Source: Actinomycetes bacterium | GTDB taxonomy: Bacteria > Actinomycetota > Acidimicrobiia > Acidimicrobiales > JAMCPL01 | Assembly (NCBI GenBank): GCA_021846515.1 | Contig: JAJZWU010000007.1 | Coordinates: 1-64,000 of the forward strand | DNA: 64,000 nt | Direction of reading: 5' to 3' | Shown here: in pieces, positions 11,500-37,358 of the stretch | How the letters are laid out: each line of letters starts with the position of its first letter | How positions within the stretch are numbered: position 1 is the first letter of the stretch | Notes under the pieces: model-generated | What the model was told of the DNA's origin: nothing | The model's input: only the letters and a program-made list of their open reading frames with translations | Databases searched by the model: none | Translations under genes and position numbers: made by a program

Positions 11500-13242
11500 A
11501 TGCAAACTACAATGATGCCAACCGAAAATGTAGAGTCGCTAACCAAGCGCAGCAACTATGATTTTGTTGTGCTCGGGGCAGGGCCGAATGGCTTGGGTAT
11601 TGCGGCATATCTCTCAAAATGGGGGTTCTCTGTATGCGTTCTGGAGGCACGACCGGAAATTGGAGGAGGCGCCGAGAATGCCGAACCGATGCCGGGCTTT
11701 TCCATAGACCCTCATGCCACCTACCTGTACGGAGCTGCTGCACCCGCATTCGAACAACTGGAACTCGGCAAATACGGCTTCAAAATGGCATACACAAAAA
11801 ATCTTGCCGGTGCCATCTCGCCCGACGGAGGGGTCTTTGCGGCCGGTTTTTACAACCCCGAGTCCCTGGATCCGTCGACTTTCTCTTCGCTCATGGGGAC
11901 ATCCATGGCAGAGATATACATAGAGATACAAAAAGGCATGCGCGCTCATGCACGTGACCTGCTCAGGGCCGTATACTATACTCCTCCCTACGATGAAAGA
12001 TGGGGAGTTCCCGGAAGCGATCTCCCGGCAGTAAAAGTGCTCCAACAGACATCCCCAGTATTTGATCCCGCTCTCACAAGAGACTCGTCTGTACTCGACA
12101 TTACGGAGGCAATCGGACTGCCTGACCCATTGAAAGCAGTGACCCTCTTTGGCTCATGGTACAACGGACCTCATCCGTTCTGGAAGGGCATGTCCATTCC
12201 GGGAATGGCCTGCAATCTCCTCTATACCTATTCCAGCGGATCTCCGGTCGGCGGTATGCACACGCTCGCCCACTCACTGGCAAGATGCGCCGTCGCAAAT
12301 GGGGCAAAGATCTTTGTCAATTCACCGGTTACCGAGATAATCGTTCAAGACGGAAGAGCTGTAGGCGTACGTGTGGATGACACCTCAGTACTGGAGGAAA
12401 AGACCGTAAGGGCCAACCTTGCGGTCATAAGCGCTCTGCACGTAAGGCAGACCTTTCTGGATCTCGTAGGGCCCTCTCATCTTTCACCAGACTTCCTTGA
12501 AAGCATAAAAGCCCTTAACCTGCGTGGAGGCAGCCTATTTGTGCTGCACATTATCACCACAGAACTCCCCCGCTACAAGGGAGCCGAAGATGCATTCTCG
12601 GGCGATAAGTATCCTTCATGTACCGTGATCAATGCTTCCACCGATATTCTCATGGAAGAAATGCGCGATGTATATTCATTCAAGACCCACCCCACGGATC
12701 CAGACCATTTCATTATACCTATATGTACTCACGATACTTACGATTCCACCAGGTCACCTTCCGGATACTATGTATTGAGCCCTATATACGTACAATGTCC
12801 GGTACCTGAAGAACATCGCGATGGCCCAGACGCGGTTAACGATGCCAAGGAAGAGATTACCGAGACAATACTGCGCTTGCTGGAACAGTACGCTCCAAAC
12901 ATGACACGAGATAAAATAGTGGCTACTTACGTGAACACCCCGAGAGACTCGGAGTTCAGGAACATGGCCTTTGTCGGCGGTAACTGGTACGGACTGCGCG
13001 AGTCGCAGGATGAGTGGTGGTCAAAACGGCCACTTCCGGAATTGGCCCGCTACCGTACTCCCGTGGAAGGACTATATCTATGCAACCATACGTCGCACCC
13101 GGGAGGGCTCTGCCTGATAGCGGTTCCATACAATTTGATGCATATACTGATTGAGGATCTGGAGCCCGTTGCGGACACAACCCCCGGATGGTGGTACCCC
13201 TCTCCCTGGCACATCACCGATGCAGATGGAGGGACAAGATGA
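11500..13242 (+). CDS. NAD(P)/FAD-dependent oxidoreductase, CrtI/PYROXD2-like (type A)
   Basis: YDFVVLGAGPNGLGIAAYLSKWGFSVCVLEARPEIGGGAE Rossmann/FAD motif; C-terminal YRTPVEGLYLCNHTSHPGG. Confidence 0.9.
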   Translation: MQTTMMPTENVESLTKRSNYDFVVLGAGPNGLGIAAYLSKWGFSVCVLEARPEIGGGAENAEPMPGFSIDPHATYLYGAAAPAFEQLELGKYGFKMAYTKNLAGAISPDGGVFAAGFYNPESLDPSTFSSLMGTSMAEIYIEIQKGMRAHARDLLRAVYYTPPYDERWGVPGSDLPAVKVLQQTSPVFDPALTRDSSVLDITEAIGLPDPLKAVTLFGSWYNGPHPFWKGMSIPGMACNLLYTYSSGSPVGGMHTLAHSLARCAVANGAKIFVNSPVTEIIVQDGRAVGVRVDDTSVLEEKTVRANLAVISALHVRQTFLDLVGPSHLSPDFLESIKALNLRGGSLFVLHIITTELPRYKGAEDAFSGDKYPSCTVINASTDILMEEMRDVYSFKTHPTDPDHFIIPICTHDTYDSTRSPSGYYVLSPIYVQCPVPEEHRDGPDAVNDAKEEITETILRLLEQYAPNMTRDKIVATYVNTPRDSEFRNMAFVGGNWYGLRESQDEWWSKRPLPELARYRTPVEGLYLCNHTSHPGGLCLIAVPYNLMHILIEDLEPVADTTPGWWYPSPWHITDADGGTR

Positions 13243-14906
13243 GAGAACGTCCACAGAGCGCCATAACCCTCTCTCCGGAAGAACGTCCCCTGGAAGAGTA
13301 TCCATACAATTCAGAGGTGGATGTAGCTGTCATAGGGGCAGGTCCCAATGGTCTTATAGCAGCTTTATACCTGGCGGCAGCCGGGCTCCAGGTTGCATTG
13401 GTAGAAAAACGCTACGAAATAGGAGGGGGGCTTGCCACCGAAGAAATACTATTCCCCGGATATTACGCAAACACCCATGCAACCTACCACTACATGACCG
13501 ACTACATGCCCGTGTTGGAAGATTTTGACCTTTCCGGCCATGGTCTGCGTTTCTTCAAGCCGTCTCTGCAAACAAAGTCGTATATAGGCGATGAAGAGGT
13601 TTGCCTCTACCGCACTCTCGAAGACACAAGAGACTTCCTGGCCAGGACATCTCTATCTCTGGCCGATTCGTTCGCCAGAACCTCTATGAGTTTCAGGCGC
13701 ATGGTAGACGAGATAGTAGGTCCTGCTACCTACCTCCCCCCAATGCCACCACTTGACATGATAGACAGAATGGGTACCACCCCTACAGGCAACGAGCTGC
13801 TTGCAGTATCTGAAGCGAGCCCTCATGAAGTCCTGGACGGAGCCAATCTGGATGACCCGCTTACCGCTACCCTGCTCTACATGGCATGCCAATGGGGAAT
13901 ATCTCCGAGGGAGACTGGCATGGGGTTCATGGTCCCCCTGCTGGTGGACAGGGGCATGCAAAAGGCAATCTGCTATGGAGGCTCCCACCGGATGGCAAGT
14001 GCACTCTCACGAGAGTTTCTCCGAAGGGGAGGTACCATCCTGGACAATGCAGAGGTGGATTATATCGAGGTAGGAGATAATGGGGCCAGCGGCATTGGCA
14101 TGGCGGACGGAAGGGTTATAAAAGCCCGTAGAGCCGTAGTGTCCAGCCTGGATCCAGCGACCACTATGTTGCGCCTTCTCCCGGATGGATCTGTACCCGA
14201 TGAAATGGTATCAGCACTTGGTGAATGGAAATGGGACAAGTGGTCGTTACTGACAGTATTTTTCGCACTGCAGGCAGGGGAACACAGGGACACATCATAC
14301 GGCAACAACGAGCCTTTCGCTACGATACTGGGTTTTGACTCCTCCGATGACGTGATAGATGTTCTTGAGAGCGTGGAAGCAGGTGAAATATCGAAAATAG
14401 CCGGCCATCTAACCATAGAATCCGAGCTCGACCCATGCCTGAAACCACGAAACGGGGAAAGGGTTGGATTCTTCCAGATGCCTGCACCTTACGACTACCC
14501 CTGGCAGGAAAACTCGAACAGCATCCTGCAGCAGGTACTCGACCTGCTGGGGGCGCATACACCAGGTATCCGGGAAGACCTGCTCGCAGTCAAGGTGGAA
14601 ACGCCTGTGGATGTGGAGAGGCGATTAGCCTCTATGGTCAGGGGGTCAATCAAGCATGGTGACTATAACCCATTGCAGATGGGATACCTGAGGCCACACA
14701 TCGACTGCTCTGATACGCGCACCCCGGTGGAAGGACTCTACCTGTGTGGAGCATCTGTATATCCTGGTGGCATGATAATTGGTGGACCGGGATACCTTTG
14801 CGCCCGGGCAGTTATAAATGACTTGGGTATGGAATTCCCCTTCCCTGTCACCAAAAAGATGGAGTCTTACGCAAATACATACCTGGACGGCAACATAGAG
14901 TGGTAG
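13239..14906 (+). CDS. NAD(P)/FAD-dependent oxidoreductase, CrtI/PYROXD2-like (type B); start MRERPQS overlaps the upstream stop (ATGA)
   Basis: VDVAVIGAGPNGLIAALYLAAAGLQVALVEKRYEIGGGLATEE; C-terminal GSIKHGDYNPLQMGYLRPHIDCSDTRTPVEGLYLCGASVYPGGMIIGGPGYL. Confidence 0.9.
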   Translation: MRERPQSAITLSPEERPLEEYPYNSEVDVAVIGAGPNGLIAALYLAAAGLQVALVEKRYEIGGGLATEEILFPGYYANTHATYHYMTDYMPVLEDFDLSGHGLRFFKPSLQTKSYIGDEEVCLYRTLEDTRDFLARTSLSLADSFARTSMSFRRMVDEIVGPATYLPPMPPLDMIDRMGTTPTGNELLAVSEASPHEVLDGANLDDPLTATLLYMACQWGISPRETGMGFMVPLLVDRGMQKAICYGGSHRMASALSREFLRRGGTILDNAEVDYIEVGDNGASGIGMADGRVIKARRAVVSSLDPATTMLRLLPDGSVPDEMVSALGEWKWDKWSLLTVFFALQAGEHRDTSYGNNEPFATILGFDSSDDVIDVLESVEAGEISKIAGHLTIESELDPCLKPRNGERVGFFQMPAPYDYPWQENSNSILQQVLDLLGAHTPGIREDLLAVKVETPVDVERRLASMVRGSIKHGDYNPLQMGYLRPHIDCSDTRTPVEGLYLCGASVYPGGMIIGGPGYLCARAVINDLGMEFPFPVTKKMESYANTYLDGNIEW

Positions 14907-15013
14907 TGGCTGTACCTGTCAGCATAAGAGCAATCCACATTAAATCACCAAAATCGCCCCAAGGGACGTTACACAAGTAAAAATTGTAATAGGATATTAA
15001 AAGGAGACAACTC

Positions 15014-15547
15014 ATGAAATTATGGTCACGGGGACTTGGACGCAGAGAACTGATCATGGACTTCACTCACTACGCAGTACGTCGCTCTGATGATGGCGGC
15101 ATAGAAATATTCGGAGTTACAGAACAGCCGGTGAGTTGGGAGTTCAGAGTTCACATTGAACAGGAAGATGTTCCGGGGTTGGTACATGTGGCTCTCTCTA
15201 AACCGGTAAGAAAAATGTTGATACGAAAGATACCCACAGCCATAGCCACCGTATGGAGAAGGCGCCGCTTCAAAGTACCTGAGGGATTGGAGGAACGGGT
15301 AAAGAACGCTCACTCACACGTAATGGAGAGGCAACGCATGAATCGCCAGATGATAGGTAGGAGGAATACCGGTGCTGTACCCATCACTGCAGATTCCGAT
15401 GACCTTACCGATGATGCAGTAGATCTCGATGCTGGCACTACCCCCACCTATAACAATAAAGTTGCTTCCGGCAGTTCCAAAGTTGCCGACAATAAGGTTG
15501 CCGGTAATAACAACAAGACCACGGGAAGTGCAGTAGGGATCGGCTGA
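15014..15547 (+). CDS. Conserved-looking small protein of unknown function with low-complexity C-terminal tail
   Basis: ORF with AAAAGGAGACAACTC RBS; stop overlaps the next gene start (TGATG); sits inside the oxidoreductase cluster. Confidence 0.75.
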   Translation: MKLWSRGLGRRELIMDFTHYAVRRSDDGGIEIFGVTEQPVSWEFRVHIEQEDVPGLVHVALSKPVRKMLIRKIPTAIATVWRRRRFKVPEGLEERVKNAHSHVMERQRMNRQMIGRRNTGAVPITADSDDLTDDAVDLDAGTTPTYNNKVASGSSKVADNKVAGNNNKTTGSAVGIG

Positions 15548-17289
15548 TGGACTACGATGTTATAGTTATAGGTGGGGGAATCAACGGTTTGACAGCGGCA
15601 GCCTACCTGGCAAAGTCAGGCTTAAAAGTCGGGGTTTTCGAGCGTAAAGGGCAGTGCGGGGCACATTGCGACAGCATAGAGCTGGGTATGCCCGGCTTCT
15701 GGCATAATCTTCATGCGACATGGTTGATATGCGGCATGAGCCCGGCAATGGAGGACCTGGATTTGCCGGGGCATGGGCTGGAGCTTGTCGGTACCGATGT
15801 CGCCTATGCAAAAGAGTTTCTCGGGGGACGCAACTGCCTGATCTCTCCCGATCCGCTCACTACACTCGAAAGTATCTCCTCCGCATCTGCACACGATGCA
15901 GAGTTGCTTCAGCGCAGTGCCGCCTTTTTTATGGAGCACTGGAGCGACCTTCTCGACCAGATGAAGCTTTTTTTTGCCAGGCCGCCATCGGCGGAACTGA
16001 GCAACTCTGTGTTGCTGGTAGAGGCAATGTTGAATCTAATGGACATAAAGATCGATCCATTTGAGTTTCAGGGAATGACCGGGTTCGAAGCACTTGACCT
16101 GATTTTCGAGTCAGAGGAGCTGAAGACTACCCTGGCATCACTGTCGTGGATAGGAGGCATACCACCGATTCATAGAAAAATTGGAGTGATGGGAGCACTT
16201 CTTCTCGGCTCATTTACCGGGACACTGTTTCCGGTACATCAAGCCACAGGCGGTTCACACGCACTCACTCATGCCCTGGTCAGATCAGTGGTGGACAATG
16301 GTGGGGAGATATGGACAAGCAGCGCGGTGGACAGGATCATTGTCGAAGACGGTAAGGCGGTAGGCATACACCTGCACCCGGACAGCCTGCTGGGAGATGT
16401 CGAGATAAGAGCAAAGACAGTCCTTTCCAACCTCACCGTAGCACCCACCTTCACCAGACTTCTCAGCGAAGAAGTAATCGGCTCAGCCTGGGCGAATAAG
16501 ATAAGAGCTTTCAGCTACGACGAACAGGTTCTATTTGGCGTATACTATGCCCTCTCCGGTGATCCCGAGTTCGCCTCTGCCGCACGGGCTCCAGGAGTAC
16601 AACGCAGTTTTATGGGTTTCTTCGGCGGAGAAACAATGGAGGAATTACGCCGATTCGGTGTCAATCTTGTATCAGGAGTAATTGACGATACCATAGCCGG
16701 CAACTGGTTCGTACCGACCAGAGCAGATCCGACGCAGGCTCCTCCCTCCATGCATACGTCATTCGTATGGCTGGATGTTCCACCTGCACCCAGGAAATGG
16801 CACGGCAAGTCACTGGGGGGCTGGAATGCATGGCCAGATATAGCAGAGAGCCTAGCTGACGAAGTTACCGATGCATATGAACTCTATGCTCCCGGATTCA
16901 AGGATCTTATACTGGAAAGGTTTGTAATGACCCCACCAGATCAGGAACGCAATAATCCGTCGGCAGTTAGAGGCAACTGGATAGGTGGTTCGATGCTTCC
17001 GGAACAGGTCTTCTACAATCGGCCCGTTCCGGGACTCATCCAGCAGGGATCGGCCTCACGGACGTTTATACCCAACTTGTACCTGTCCAACTCCATCCAC
17101 CCCGGAGGAACCACCTGGCTCACCTCCGGATATCTGGCAGCAGTGGAGATAGCTCAAGACATGGGGACTTTCAGTACAGAGCTCTGGAATGCCCAGGCAT
17201 TTAACTGGTGCCTGGCCAACGCGGGATCCATACCGCTAAACAGAGGAGTAGCACCACGTTGGCTGAAGCAGAATACGGGAGGGAAGTAA
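15547..17289 (+). CDS. NAD(P)/FAD-dependent oxidoreductase, CrtI/PYROXD2-like (type A'), atypical second nucleotide-binding motif
   Basis: YDVIVIGGGINGLTAAAYLAKSGLKVGVFERKGQCGAHCDS; C-terminal PNLYLSNSIHPGGTTWLTSGYLAAVEIAQDMG. Confidence 0.9.
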   Translation: MDYDVIVIGGGINGLTAAAYLAKSGLKVGVFERKGQCGAHCDSIELGMPGFWHNLHATWLICGMSPAMEDLDLPGHGLELVGTDVAYAKEFLGGRNCLISPDPLTTLESISSASAHDAELLQRSAAFFMEHWSDLLDQMKLFFARPPSAELSNSVLLVEAMLNLMDIKIDPFEFQGMTGFEALDLIFESEELKTTLASLSWIGGIPPIHRKIGVMGALLLGSFTGTLFPVHQATGGSHALTHALVRSVVDNGGEIWTSSAVDRIIVEDGKAVGIHLHPDSLLGDVEIRAKTVLSNLTVAPTFTRLLSEEVIGSAWANKIRAFSYDEQVLFGVYYALSGDPEFASAARAPGVQRSFMGFFGGETMEELRRFGVNLVSGVIDDTIAGNWFVPTRADPTQAPPSMHTSFVWLDVPPAPRKWHGKSLGGWNAWPDIAESLADEVTDAYELYAPGFKDLILERFVMTPPDQERNNPSAVRGNWIGGSMLPEQVFYNRPVPGLIQQGSASRTFIPNLYLSNSIHPGGTTWLTSGYLAAVEIAQDMGTFSTELWNAQAFNWCLANAGSIPLNRGVAPRWLKQNTGGK

Positions 17290-18824
17290 TGAGTGCCGAT
17301 TCGCAACACGATTACGATGCCATCATCATCGGAGGAGGGCCAAACGGGCTGATTGCTTCGTCATATCTGGCCAGAGCAGGCGCACGCGTACTTTTACTGG
17401 AAAGGCGCATAGAAACCGGTGGAGGACTGAACACAGATGAGTACTTTGGGTTTCGGTTCAATCTCCACGCTGTATACCACTTGATGGCCGATGTAATGCC
17501 GGCATATAGAGACTTGGACCTTTCCGGCTATGGGCTCAGATACGTCACACCACCGTACGGAGCGGCATTCCTGCTCCCCGACAACCGTTCAATGCTGTTC
17601 AGCAATGATCCTGCTGCAACGGCTGAGGAGATAAGGAAGTTCTCGAATACAGATGCTATACGATATGTCGATATGTGGAACAGCTTCCAGCCAATGCTTG
17701 ATCAGTACCTCATACCGCTTACCTATGAGCTGCCAATGCCCCCACTGGAGCAGCTTGAGCTGATGGAACAGGATGAGGCGGGCCAGGAGATGGCACGTAT
17801 CTCAGAAATGTCGTTTGTAGACATTCTGGATGACTACGGCTTTGAGAATACACACGTGAGGATGGCACTATTGAGCTTTCCTGCAATGTGGGGACTTGAC
17901 CTTCATGAACCATTGGGCTTTCTGTACCCACTGTATCTCTGCCGTATGCTCAATGCCGCTCTGGTAAAGGGTGGCTCACACCGCATGTCTTCAGCTATAT
18001 ACCGTTCCCTCGTTCATGCAGGTGGGGTTGTGCGCGACGCATGCCCGGCAGCATCACTGATCGTAGAAGATGGTACGGTAGTGGGAGTAAGGACTGCCGC
18101 CGGAGAGACCTTCCGGGCACCCCTGGTCATCTCCACACTCAATCCCGAACAGACATTTATCAACCTGCTCGGAGAAGAATACCTTGATGAAGCGTTGCAA
18201 TCTGCGATATCCGGCTGGGAATGGGAACAGCGTAGCCTGTTCGGATTGCATCTGGGCATACGAGGTGATTTTTCCTATAAATCGGGAGACAACAGAGTGG
18301 ATGATGCACTGGTTGCATTCATGGGGCTATCCACCGAAGAAGATTTGCATTCTCACCTGGCTGGAGTAGACAGCGGAGAATTGAGCGGCACAGACTGGAT
18401 ACATGTGACAGTACCAACCAGGTTCGACTCCACCCAGGCATCTGATGGATACCAGACTGTGCGCATAGAATCGGTTGCTTCATATTCGTCTCCATGGAAT
18501 GAGATTACACCGACATACGCTGAATCCTGCCTTAATCTGTTACATAAGTATGCCGACTTGGGGGAGATAGTAGTGCAACGAACATGCACCCCGGTCGATA
18601 TTGAACAGCGCCTTACCACCATGAAGCAGGGCTCCATAAAGCATGGCGCCTATACTCCCCTGCAACTTGGGTACTTCAGGCCAACCGAGCTGTGTTCCCA
18701 GATAGAGACCCCGGTACCCGGATTGTTGGTGGCGGGTGCTTCAGTCTATCCGGGTGGCATGATACTCGGAGGCCCCGGCTACCTGGGAGCCAAGGTCGCC
18801 ATGGAACTGCTTGGTATCAGGTAA
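17289..18824 (+). CDS. NAD(P)/FAD-dependent oxidoreductase, CrtI/PYROXD2-like (type B'); start MSADSQHD overlaps upstream stop (TAATG)
   Basis: YDAIIIGGGPNGLIASSYLARAGARVLLLERRIETGGGLNTDE; C-terminal GSIKHGAYTPLQLGYFRPTELCSQIETPVPGLLVAGASVYPGGMILGGPGYLGAKVA. Confidence 0.9.
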   Translation: MSADSQHDYDAIIIGGGPNGLIASSYLARAGARVLLLERRIETGGGLNTDEYFGFRFNLHAVYHLMADVMPAYRDLDLSGYGLRYVTPPYGAAFLLPDNRSMLFSNDPAATAEEIRKFSNTDAIRYVDMWNSFQPMLDQYLIPLTYELPMPPLEQLELMEQDEAGQEMARISEMSFVDILDDYGFENTHVRMALLSFPAMWGLDLHEPLGFLYPLYLCRMLNAALVKGGSHRMSSAIYRSLVHAGGVVRDACPAASLIVEDGTVVGVRTAAGETFRAPLVISTLNPEQTFINLLGEEYLDEALQSAISGWEWEQRSLFGLHLGIRGDFSYKSGDNRVDDALVAFMGLSTEEDLHSHLAGVDSGELSGTDWIHVTVPTRFDSTQASDGYQTVRIESVASYSSPWNEITPTYAESCLNLLHKYADLGEIVVQRTCTPVDIEQRLTTMKQGSIKHGAYTPLQLGYFRPTELCSQIETPVPGLLVAGASVYPGGMILGGPGYLGAKVAMELLGIR

Positions 18825-35042: not shown

Positions 35043-37358
35043 ATGGGCACCAAGGAAAATCATATGGCCAGTTCAATTGACAGCATGGGAACCAGCACCG
35101 GAAGTATAGACAGCCTGATAGCCGGAGCACAAGGCATCAGGAAATCTGCCTTTGGAAATATCGTAACCTACTCCCCAAAGGTATTTATACCGCTTACAAA
35201 TCTATGTAGAGATCGCTGTGGATACTGCACATTTTCACAACCACCAGCTCGCCTCTCTTCGCCTTACTTATCCACCGAAGAAGTATTGGACATTGCGCAA
35301 AAGGGTGTTGACGCCGGGTGCAGCGAAGCGCTCTTTACCCTTGGTCAGCTCCCAGAGAAGCGTTACACTGTTGCCGCCCAATGGCTCAAAGAGCATGGAT
35401 ACGATTCGACTATACACTATCTCGTAGAAATGTGCAGGACGGTCAGGGACAATACCGGGCTACTACCTCACGCAAATGCCGGAGCATTGACCCACGAGGA
35501 GCTGAACGCATTACGTCCGGTAACTGCCAGCCAGGGTATGATGCTGGAAAGTGTTGACCCCTCGTTACGCTGCCATCTGAACTCTCCGGATAAAGTGCCT
35601 GAAGTCAGGCTAAAGACTCTGGATGATGCGGGTAAATTGCATATACCATTCACTACGGGACTGCTCGTGGGTATAGGTGAAAACAGGCAATCTCGTATTG
35701 ACACCTTGGTAGAGATTGCCAAGTCACATAAACTATACGGCCATATACAGGAAGTAATTATCCAGGGATTTCTTCCCAAGCCGGGAACATCAATGCATAA
35801 TTATCCACCATGCCCTACTGAAGAGCTACTCTGGACGATCGCGGCCGCAAGACACATACTGTCACCTGACATACACTTACAATCCCCTCCAAACCTCACA
35901 GACGATTTAGCATCACTCCTGAATGCGGGTATCGATGATTGGGGGGGTATATCACCGGTGACACTGGATCATGTAAACCCGGAGCGCCCTTGGCCTGAGA
36001 TCGAGCTGATCAATAAAGTGACCAGCGACAACGGTTTTACTCTGGTACCCCGCCTTACTATATACCCGCAGTTCCTCTCTGATCCGCATCGCTGGCTCCA
36101 TCCCGACATGGTATTCCCCGTTATGAACATGCAGGATGCCAATGGATATGCACGTGAAGACAGATGGTGCTCAGGCTCGGATATCGAACCACCGCACTTA
36201 GCGGTCGATTCAGGACATACAAACAAACCAAACAACCTATCGACACGTACCAAAGTATCCGAAGTCATTGAGGGCATCACTGGAGGCCAAGAACCCGGAA
36301 TAGACGAACTGGTCACATTATTCGGCGCTCGCGGAAATGACTTCCATAATGTAATTGAGCTGGCAGACGAAATGCGTGCGCGTGTCAATGGTGAAACTGT
36401 TACCTTCGTAGCTAATCGCAATATAAACTACACCAATATATGCACCTTCAAGTGTCGTTTTTGTGCATTCTCCAAAGGACCTCTTTCGCTCAACTTACGG
36501 GGAAATCCATACCTGCTTGACTTCGACGAGATAAGCGCAAAAGTAGTCGAAGCCGTACAGGCAGGTGCAACTGAAGTATGCCTTCAGGGTGGCATACACC
36601 CCGACTTTGATGGAGAATATTACCTCTCTGTCCTGGACGCAATCCGTAAGGCTTCGTCCAATATACACATACACGCATTCAGCGCACTGGAAGTGCATGA
36701 AGGAGCAAGAAGGTTGGGAATAGAGCTGGAAGATTACTTGAGGATGCTGAAGGAAAAAGGACTGGCCAGCCTGCCCGGCACCGCGGCGGAAATCCTGTCA
36801 GACGATATCAGGGACATTCTCTGCCCCGACAAGATTAAAACAGAACGCTGGTTGGAGATCCATAGAGTAGCGCATAGCGTCGGGTTACGCTCTAACGTAA
36901 CCATCATGTTTGGTGCAGTAGAACAGCCTATTCATTGGGCAAAACACATAGTGCTAACCAGAGAATTGCAGAAACAAACCGGTGGGTTCACTGAATTCGT
37001 GCCCTTACCCTATGTACATATGGGAGCTCCACTCTACGTTCAGCGGCGATCAAGGCGTGGACCTACATTCAGGGAAGTGATGCTGATATACGCTGTCGGC
37101 CGTATCGCATATCATGGCTATATAGACAATATACAGACCAGCTGGGTAAAATTGGGGGTGGAGGGTGCGCGGCAAACTCTTGCCGCCGGAGCAAATGATC
37201 TTGGAGGGACGTTAATGGAGGAGAGCATATCACGTGCTGCAGGGGCAAACCACGGGCAATCTGTTAGCATCTCTGATCTGTACTCCATAGTACAACCCCT
37301 GGGTAGGACACTTTACCAACGCTCTACACTGTATAACCTGTTGAATCAGGCAGCGTAA
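35043..37358 (+). CDS. fbiC: 7,8-didemethyl-8-hydroxy-5-deazariboflavin (FO) synthase, CofG-CofH fusion
   Basis: Two radical SAM cores: CRDRCGYCTFSQPP (CofG half) and CTFKCRFCAFSKGP (CofH half). Confidence 0.96.
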   Translation: MGTKENHMASSIDSMGTSTGSIDSLIAGAQGIRKSAFGNIVTYSPKVFIPLTNLCRDRCGYCTFSQPPARLSSPYLSTEEVLDIAQKGVDAGCSEALFTLGQLPEKRYTVAAQWLKEHGYDSTIHYLVEMCRTVRDNTGLLPHANAGALTHEELNALRPVTASQGMMLESVDPSLRCHLNSPDKVPEVRLKTLDDAGKLHIPFTTGLLVGIGENRQSRIDTLVEIAKSHKLYGHIQEVIIQGFLPKPGTSMHNYPPCPTEELLWTIAAARHILSPDIHLQSPPNLTDDLASLLNAGIDDWGGISPVTLDHVNPERPWPEIELINKVTSDNGFTLVPRLTIYPQFLSDPHRWLHPDMVFPVMNMQDANGYAREDRWCSGSDIEPPHLAVDSGHTNKPNNLSTRTKVSEVIEGITGGQEPGIDELVTLFGARGNDFHNVIELADEMRARVNGETVTFVANRNINYTNICTFKCRFCAFSKGPLSLNLRGNPYLLDFDEISAKVVEAVQAGATEVCLQGGIHPDFDGEYYLSVLDAIRKASSNIHIHAFSALEVHEGARRLGIELEDYLRMLKEKGLASLPGTAAEILSDDIRDILCPDKIKTERWLEIHRVAHSVGLRSNVTIMFGAVEQPIHWAKHIVLTRELQKQTGGFTEFVPLPYVHMGAPLYVQRRSRRGPTFREVMLIYAVGRIAYHGYIDNIQTSWVKLGVEGARQTLAAGANDLGGTLMEESISRAAGANHGQSVSISDLYSIVQPLGRTLYQRSTLYNLLNQAA

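Follow-up and report, generated by a model that had tools for sequence, protein, structure and literature searches.

A gene array for two putative covalent-flavin heteromers and a small partner protein in the class Acidimicrobiia

Four related flavoprotein genes stand side by side in an actinobacterial MAG (2.27 Mb, contig 25), and the locus raises the question of which reaction their products catalyse, whether they act singly or in pairs, and what the small gene among them contributes. The window, by which is meant the whole stretch of 64,000 nucleotides that was analysed, contains five co-directional genes in the order A-B-x-A'-B', which fill positions 11500-18824 (Table 1) between an amino-acid permease gene upstream and a convergent gene downstream. 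The four larger reading frames, picked out in an earlier sequence-only reading by their common strand and N-terminal GxGxxGL signature, are all intact on the + strand, and their products match FAD-oxidoreductase Pfams above cut-off. The overlaps of stop and start codons described there are exact (ATGA at 13239, TGATG at 15545 and TAATG at 17287), and the sole sizeable gap of the array, 107 nt between B and x (14907-15013), holds the AAAGGAG of x. Scans for promoter and terminator consensus sequences gave no signal above shuffles. Because the same gene order recurs in other genomes, the array is more than a chance arrangement.

Table 1. Features of the array in the window and of related genes in fetched loci (L numbers).
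Feature	Position	Strand	Description
A	11500-13242	+	COG1233-type flavoprotein, 580 aa, motif G-F-S-I-D-P-H-A; clade A has 24 members
B	13239-14906	+	COG1233-type flavoprotein, 555 aa, motif G-Y-Y-A-N-T-H-A; ATGA overlap with A
AAAGGAG	15001-15007	+	Sequence; likely ribosome-binding site of x
x	15014-15547	+	Small protein of 177 aa whose first 70 or so residues form a conserved domain
A'	15547-17289	+	COG1233-type flavoprotein, 580 aa, motif G-F-W-H-N-L-H-A; start overlaps x stop (TGATG)
B'	17289-18824	+	COG1233-type flavoprotein, 511 aa, motif G-F-R-F-N-L-H-A; start overlaps A' stop (TAATG)
C/D pair	L070 6180-9940; L084 6198-9906; L106 8639-12382; L119; L120		
Gene E	L077 5312-6790; L082 8420-10324; L083 14615-16099		
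A' with Cys motif	L087 10482-12332; L089 9357-11288; L090 8848-10560; L094 7308-9020		
A' with GGENPTDTHA motif	L069 10908-12563; L071 8774-10438; L085 9004-10644; L086 9916-11592		

Two characterised systems provide the closest precedent. The Δ24-steroid desaturase (Δ24-SD) of Sterolibacterium denitrificans is a proposed α4β4 heteromer with subunits 26% identical; it acts ahead of the Mo-dependent S26DH2, and mass spectrometry showed FMN bound covalently to the histidine of the motif G-F-L/R-X-N/S-T/L-H-A in both subunits (PMC11061730). CtmA and CtmB, the limonene dehydrogenase of Castellaniella defragrans, are COG1233 proteins 27% identical, and the ctm cluster includes ferredoxin and ferredoxin reductase genes (ctmEF) and small hypothetical genes (ctmCD) (PMC4109377). 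CtmAB reportedly needs no O2 to oxidise the allylic methyl group of a terpene and has the flavin-His motif, and CrtI/CrtO are reported to carry non-covalent FAD (PMC11061730).

This histidine motif is present in the window proteins, and the label 'CrtI/PYROXD2-like' previously given to them is not the best description. The His-Ala ending is kept in all four; B' alone fits the published consensus exactly, and A, B and A' differ from it at one to three variable positions. Across the aligned rows of clades A, B, B', C and D the histidine is invariant, and the same column is occupied by G, C, L, A or W in COG1233 proteins of Deinococcus, M. avium, Shinella, Cedecea, Rhodococcus and group E. Since certain COG1233 proteins that seem to be unpaired (Diaphorobacter, Novosphingobium and relatives within the class) also retain the histidine, the motif alone is no proof of heteromers. 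With the motif in all four proteins, the window genes appear to represent the CtmAB/Δ24-SD heteromer family twice over, and by published motif and identity figures the proteins look closest in kind to these two enzymes. As in Castellaniella, adjacent COG1233 paralogues of about 27% identity share the same type of flavin-His motif (here A/B 27% and A'/B' 29%); Castellaniella has a single pair, whereas the window array has two, and unlike ctmEF no ferredoxin or ferredoxin reductase gene lies beside it. Δ24-SD is likewise two-subunit, and its Mo hydroxylase partner is paralleled by that found beside the modules of relatives, but it acts on a steroid, and the window array has two modules and x. 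The enzyme kind is therefore not undescribed, as the earlier suggestion of an undescribed pathway or complex would have it, because this two-subunit family has already been characterised (PMC11061730, PMC4109377); the part of the suggestion that stands concerns the double array and the x family.

The motif is not uniform among A' proteins of other genomes. In an x-A'-B'-x lineage a cysteine replaces the flavin histidine (GVKVNLCAS), perhaps carrying a cysteinyl flavin, and in MerR-linked modules the motif is rewritten as GGENPTDTHA with its His-Ala ending kept. Gene E, inserted before A' in several genomes, encodes a distant COG1233 protein with Trp at the flavin-His column.

The array probably encodes two heteromeric covalent-flavin dehydrogenases of the CtmAB/Δ24-SD kind that oxidise allylic C-H bonds of isoprenoids, together with the accessory protein x; the covalent flavin, the formation of heteromers, the chemistry and the role of x are all inferred. 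In each subunit the histidine of G-[FY]-x-x-[DN]-x-H-A would anchor the flavin covalently, and A+B and A'+B' would take hydrogen from an activated (allylic) C-H of a hydrophobic isoprenoid. A possible division of labour is that one pair forms a conjugated double bond and its counterpart uses water to hydroxylate the allylic methyl group, and the products would pass to alcohol and aldehyde dehydrogenases and then to beta-oxidation, with x assisting assembly, substrate delivery or membrane contact.

In order to follow the array through other genomes, loci from class and phylum searches were mapped with profiles of clades A, B, A', B', C, D, E and x. The A-B-x-A'-B' order, whose recurrence elsewhere had been proposed as a check, is found exactly in two close MAGs (L009, L010) and, outside the class, in the genome G404 (L124); several more genomes have it in slightly altered form. 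Two loci (L077, L082) show A-B-x-E-A'-B', and in two further cases (L079 and L074/L075) the gene set is unchanged but x lies upstream of A; a MerR gene precedes x in L069, and L011 has the array without x. The modules may also be split, either as A-B-x accompanied by a third pair, C/D (L070, L073, L084), or as x-A'-B' with MerR, ALDH and ACAD genes (L071, L085), of which MerR alone is visible in L086. In total the fetched loci contain 36 A/B pairs, with a maximum of six per genome, in addition to the C/D type. This third pair also carries the covalent motif, and D is adjoined by a family of proteins of 165-200 aa without Pfam match. When the collection was scanned with B', only three close MAGs were among the matches listed. 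A tblastn search of plasmids returned distant relatives only, mostly unpaired where read, and no credible match to x. A plasmid pair from Shinella (L138 4037-7199) resembles the array in its overlapping same-strand COG1233 genes, but has Cys/Leu at the motif position, an aminomethyltransferase gene alongside and a separate branch in the tree.

The small partner gene proposed earlier is supported, in that x is conserved alongside A/B-type genes. Its product is an undescribed family: no match was obtained in Pfam, NCBIfam or PDB sequences, nor in a fold search with a low-confidence model of three strands followed by helices. The N-terminal domain (MKLxSRGLGRxEL...GTIxEPVxWDF) has nine invariant positions in its first 70 residues, the tail is helical or disordered, and in some relatives a hydrophobic helix follows the conserved domain. 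Among 395 genomes of the class, x and a strong B homologue occur together in 15, and each occurs alone in two (Fisher 3.5e-23). Every intact x in the fetched loci lies less than 2 kb from an A, B, C or D gene or from a Mo hydroxylase gene; x is not universal, several A-B pairs having none nearby. Its role is probably in assembly, substrate delivery or membrane contact.

Clues to the substrate are provided by the neighbours of the modules in relatives, which include genes for SCP2 (between C and D in several loci), ALDH, two ACADs, MerR, MFS, SDR, thiolase and AMP ligase, and also for MobB and the alpha, beta and gamma subunits of a type II DMSO-reductase-family enzyme, a Mo hydroxylase of ethylbenzene-dehydrogenase kin. 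Full-length alpha subunits of this hydroxylase (E<1e-200) are present, often in multiple copies, in 11 of 18 array-bearing genomes versus none of 22 others (Fisher 1.4e-5), a co-occurrence that is partly phylogenetic because the array-free genomes come mostly from other families. Several array-bearing genomes (G006, G010, G209, G389 and others) encode many full-length alpha subunits of the ethylbenzene-dehydrogenase type, which suggests a broad capacity for oxygen-independent hydrocarbon hydroxylation.

The window genome itself is more sparsely equipped. No catabolic gene lies alongside the array, the SCP2 proteins of the genome are encoded elsewhere, and 13 acyl-CoA dehydrogenase matches were counted. 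No Mo hydroxylase was found in this genome (its sole PF00384 protein lies, as judged by eye, in a Complex I operon), nor was P450 (PF00067), hopene cyclase (PF13243) or phytoene/squalene synthase (PF00494), and these absences carry some doubt because the completeness of the MAG is 92%. By the same searches a hopanoid pathway (no PF13243) and P450-type terpenoid oxidation (no PF00067) were ruled out. Other PF01593 matches in the genome include two HemY-like proteins, one of which adjoins a ferrochelatase-like ORF (by eye), and a glutamate-synthase-like protein; elsewhere in the window, at 35043-37358, a 771-aa ORF looks by eye like a fused CofG/CofH (FbiC) of F420 synthesis. If the pathway is complete in this genome, C-H activation must fall to the flavin pairs alone. 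Tentatively, the array may be a self-contained, Mo-independent attack on isoprenoids, in which two heteromers work in sequence and x is a dedicated subunit or carrier. Such an attack would consist of desaturation followed by water-dependent hydroxylation, or of the heteromers working at opposite ends of the same molecule, and, if true, the array would be a two-flavoenzyme counterpart of the Sterolibacterium flavin-plus-molybdenum pathway.

The isolated position of the array could also be read as a sign of biosynthesis, the pairs desaturating or oxidising a cellular isoprenoid lipid such as a quinone tail, a polyprenol or a membrane terpenoid. Besides standing beside a permease gene without catabolic neighbours, the array belongs to a small genome devoid of Mo hydroxylase, and the setting is similarly isolated in three related MAGs. 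This reading is nevertheless unlikely, given that the pairs of relatives keep company with ALDH, ACADs, SCP2, MFS, thiolase, acyl-CoA ligase and Mo hydroxylases, and given a loss within the genus that would be unusual for essential lipid synthesis. In G287, a genome of the same genus, the flanks align with those of the window at 69-78% nucleotide identity, but all that is left of the array between them is the beginning of x fused to the end of B' (L088 6570-6950, corresponding to window 15001-15177 and 18657-18805). A, B and A' are gone, and the scar joins the first 67 residues of x in-frame to the C-terminus of B'. The loss, which could possibly be an assembly error, implies that the function is dispensable and therefore favours a catabolic or niche role.

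Among catabolic roles, degradation of the steroid side chain, with the window proteins as orthologues of stigmasterol Δ24-desaturase, would agree with their kinship to Δ24-SD, with the naming of Acidimicrobiales among the best BLAST hits of that enzyme (PMC11061730), with the SCP2 gene that separates C and D in relatives and with a Mo hydroxylase of the same superfamily in those relatives. It is, however, very unlikely: at E<=1e-60 KstD (3-ketosteroid Δ1-dehydrogenase) was not found in the window genome, which has no P450 either, or in nearly all other array-bearing genomes, the exceptions being one strong and one partial match. Steroid ring degradation in the window genome was rejected on the missing KstD at this threshold, and the genome also lacks the S26DH-type Mo enzyme expected of the Δ24-SD pathway. 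As KstD is mostly missing, a non-steroid isoprenoid is the more likely substrate of the two proposed covalent-flavin dehydrogenases.

Whether these dehydrogenases are pairs at all was approached through phylogeny and co-evolution. The two C-terminal styles that had been distinguished, one in genes 1 and 3 and another in genes 2 and 4, are real, and pairwise identities are 28% for A/A' and 37% for B/B'. A recent duplication is ruled out by these low values, and any duplication of the module must be ancient, because A/A' identity barely exceeds that of A/B. Phylogeny unites B with B' as sisters (SH-aLRT 99.8). It also unites A with A' in a tree of 79 rows (support 95.4), but this node is not firm because an earlier tree of 76 rows grouped A with two Diaphorobacter proteins instead (support 95); the expected sister relationships thus hold for B/B' and, for A/A', in one tree and not in the other. 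A two-subunit A-B module present twice is supported. In the fetched loci, 43 of the 47 full-length A/A' genes are followed immediately 3' by B/B' on the same strand. For 36 pairs, distances in the A tree track those in the B tree with r=0.90, a value reached by 0 of 20,000 shuffles in which partners were swapped solely within genomes as a control for species relatedness; within the A-B clade alone the correlation is r=0.77, which 20 of 20,000 shuffles reached. The mirrored trees are strong evidence that each A belongs with the adjoining B. They also bear on the notion of four independent single-subunit oxidoreductases that are merely clustered, which is in keeping with the apparently unpaired related genes with the motif (e.g. 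Diaphorobacter L121) but is most improbable in view of the constant A-then-B order, the overlapping stop and start codons, the mirroring under species control and the heteromeric nature of both characterised relatives. The idea of heteromeric complexes is accordingly supported as probable by gene order, tree mirroring and precedent, and A+B and A'+B' most likely form two heteromers.

Carotenoid desaturation or ketolation (CrtI/CrtO) is scarcely credible, since CrtO (NF045689), although the best NCBIfam match of all four proteins (E 1e-39 to 1e-45), scores only 134-156 bits against a curated cut-off of 1000 for beta-carotene ketolase, the genome has no phytoene/squalene synthase, and a homologue from a Deinococcus carotenoid cluster has Gly where the window proteins have the flavin histidine. 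Scores for CrtI (TIGR02734) are 60-80 bits versus a cut-off of 238. The earlier claim that no carotenoid pathway is nearby extends to the whole genome, from which PF00494 is missing, and this, with the CrtO scores below cut-off, rules the pathway out. An AF2 model of B (pTM 0.81) resembles most closely the gamma-carotenoid desaturase 4rep and CRTI 4dgk, the best PDB fold matches, as is expected for the COG1233 superfamily; it is silent on the flavin bond because the motif loop was modelled at low confidence. By sequence, no solved structure of the enzyme family was seen, the best full-length matches being CrtI-type.

The enzyme kind itself is known, and the novelty lies in its arrangement as a double array and in the partner family x. 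In the literature searched, characterised covalent-flavin heteromers number two, one hydroxylating and one desaturating, reportedly by different mechanisms. The family is expanded in an actinobacterial class, most likely Acidimicrobiia, where the double module is conserved and comes with a new small partner. It thereby offers a ready set in which to test what makes such an enzyme hydroxylate or desaturate, why it needs two subunits, some A' proteins having Cys for His, and whether an attack on terpenoids is feasible with neither O2 nor molybdenum.
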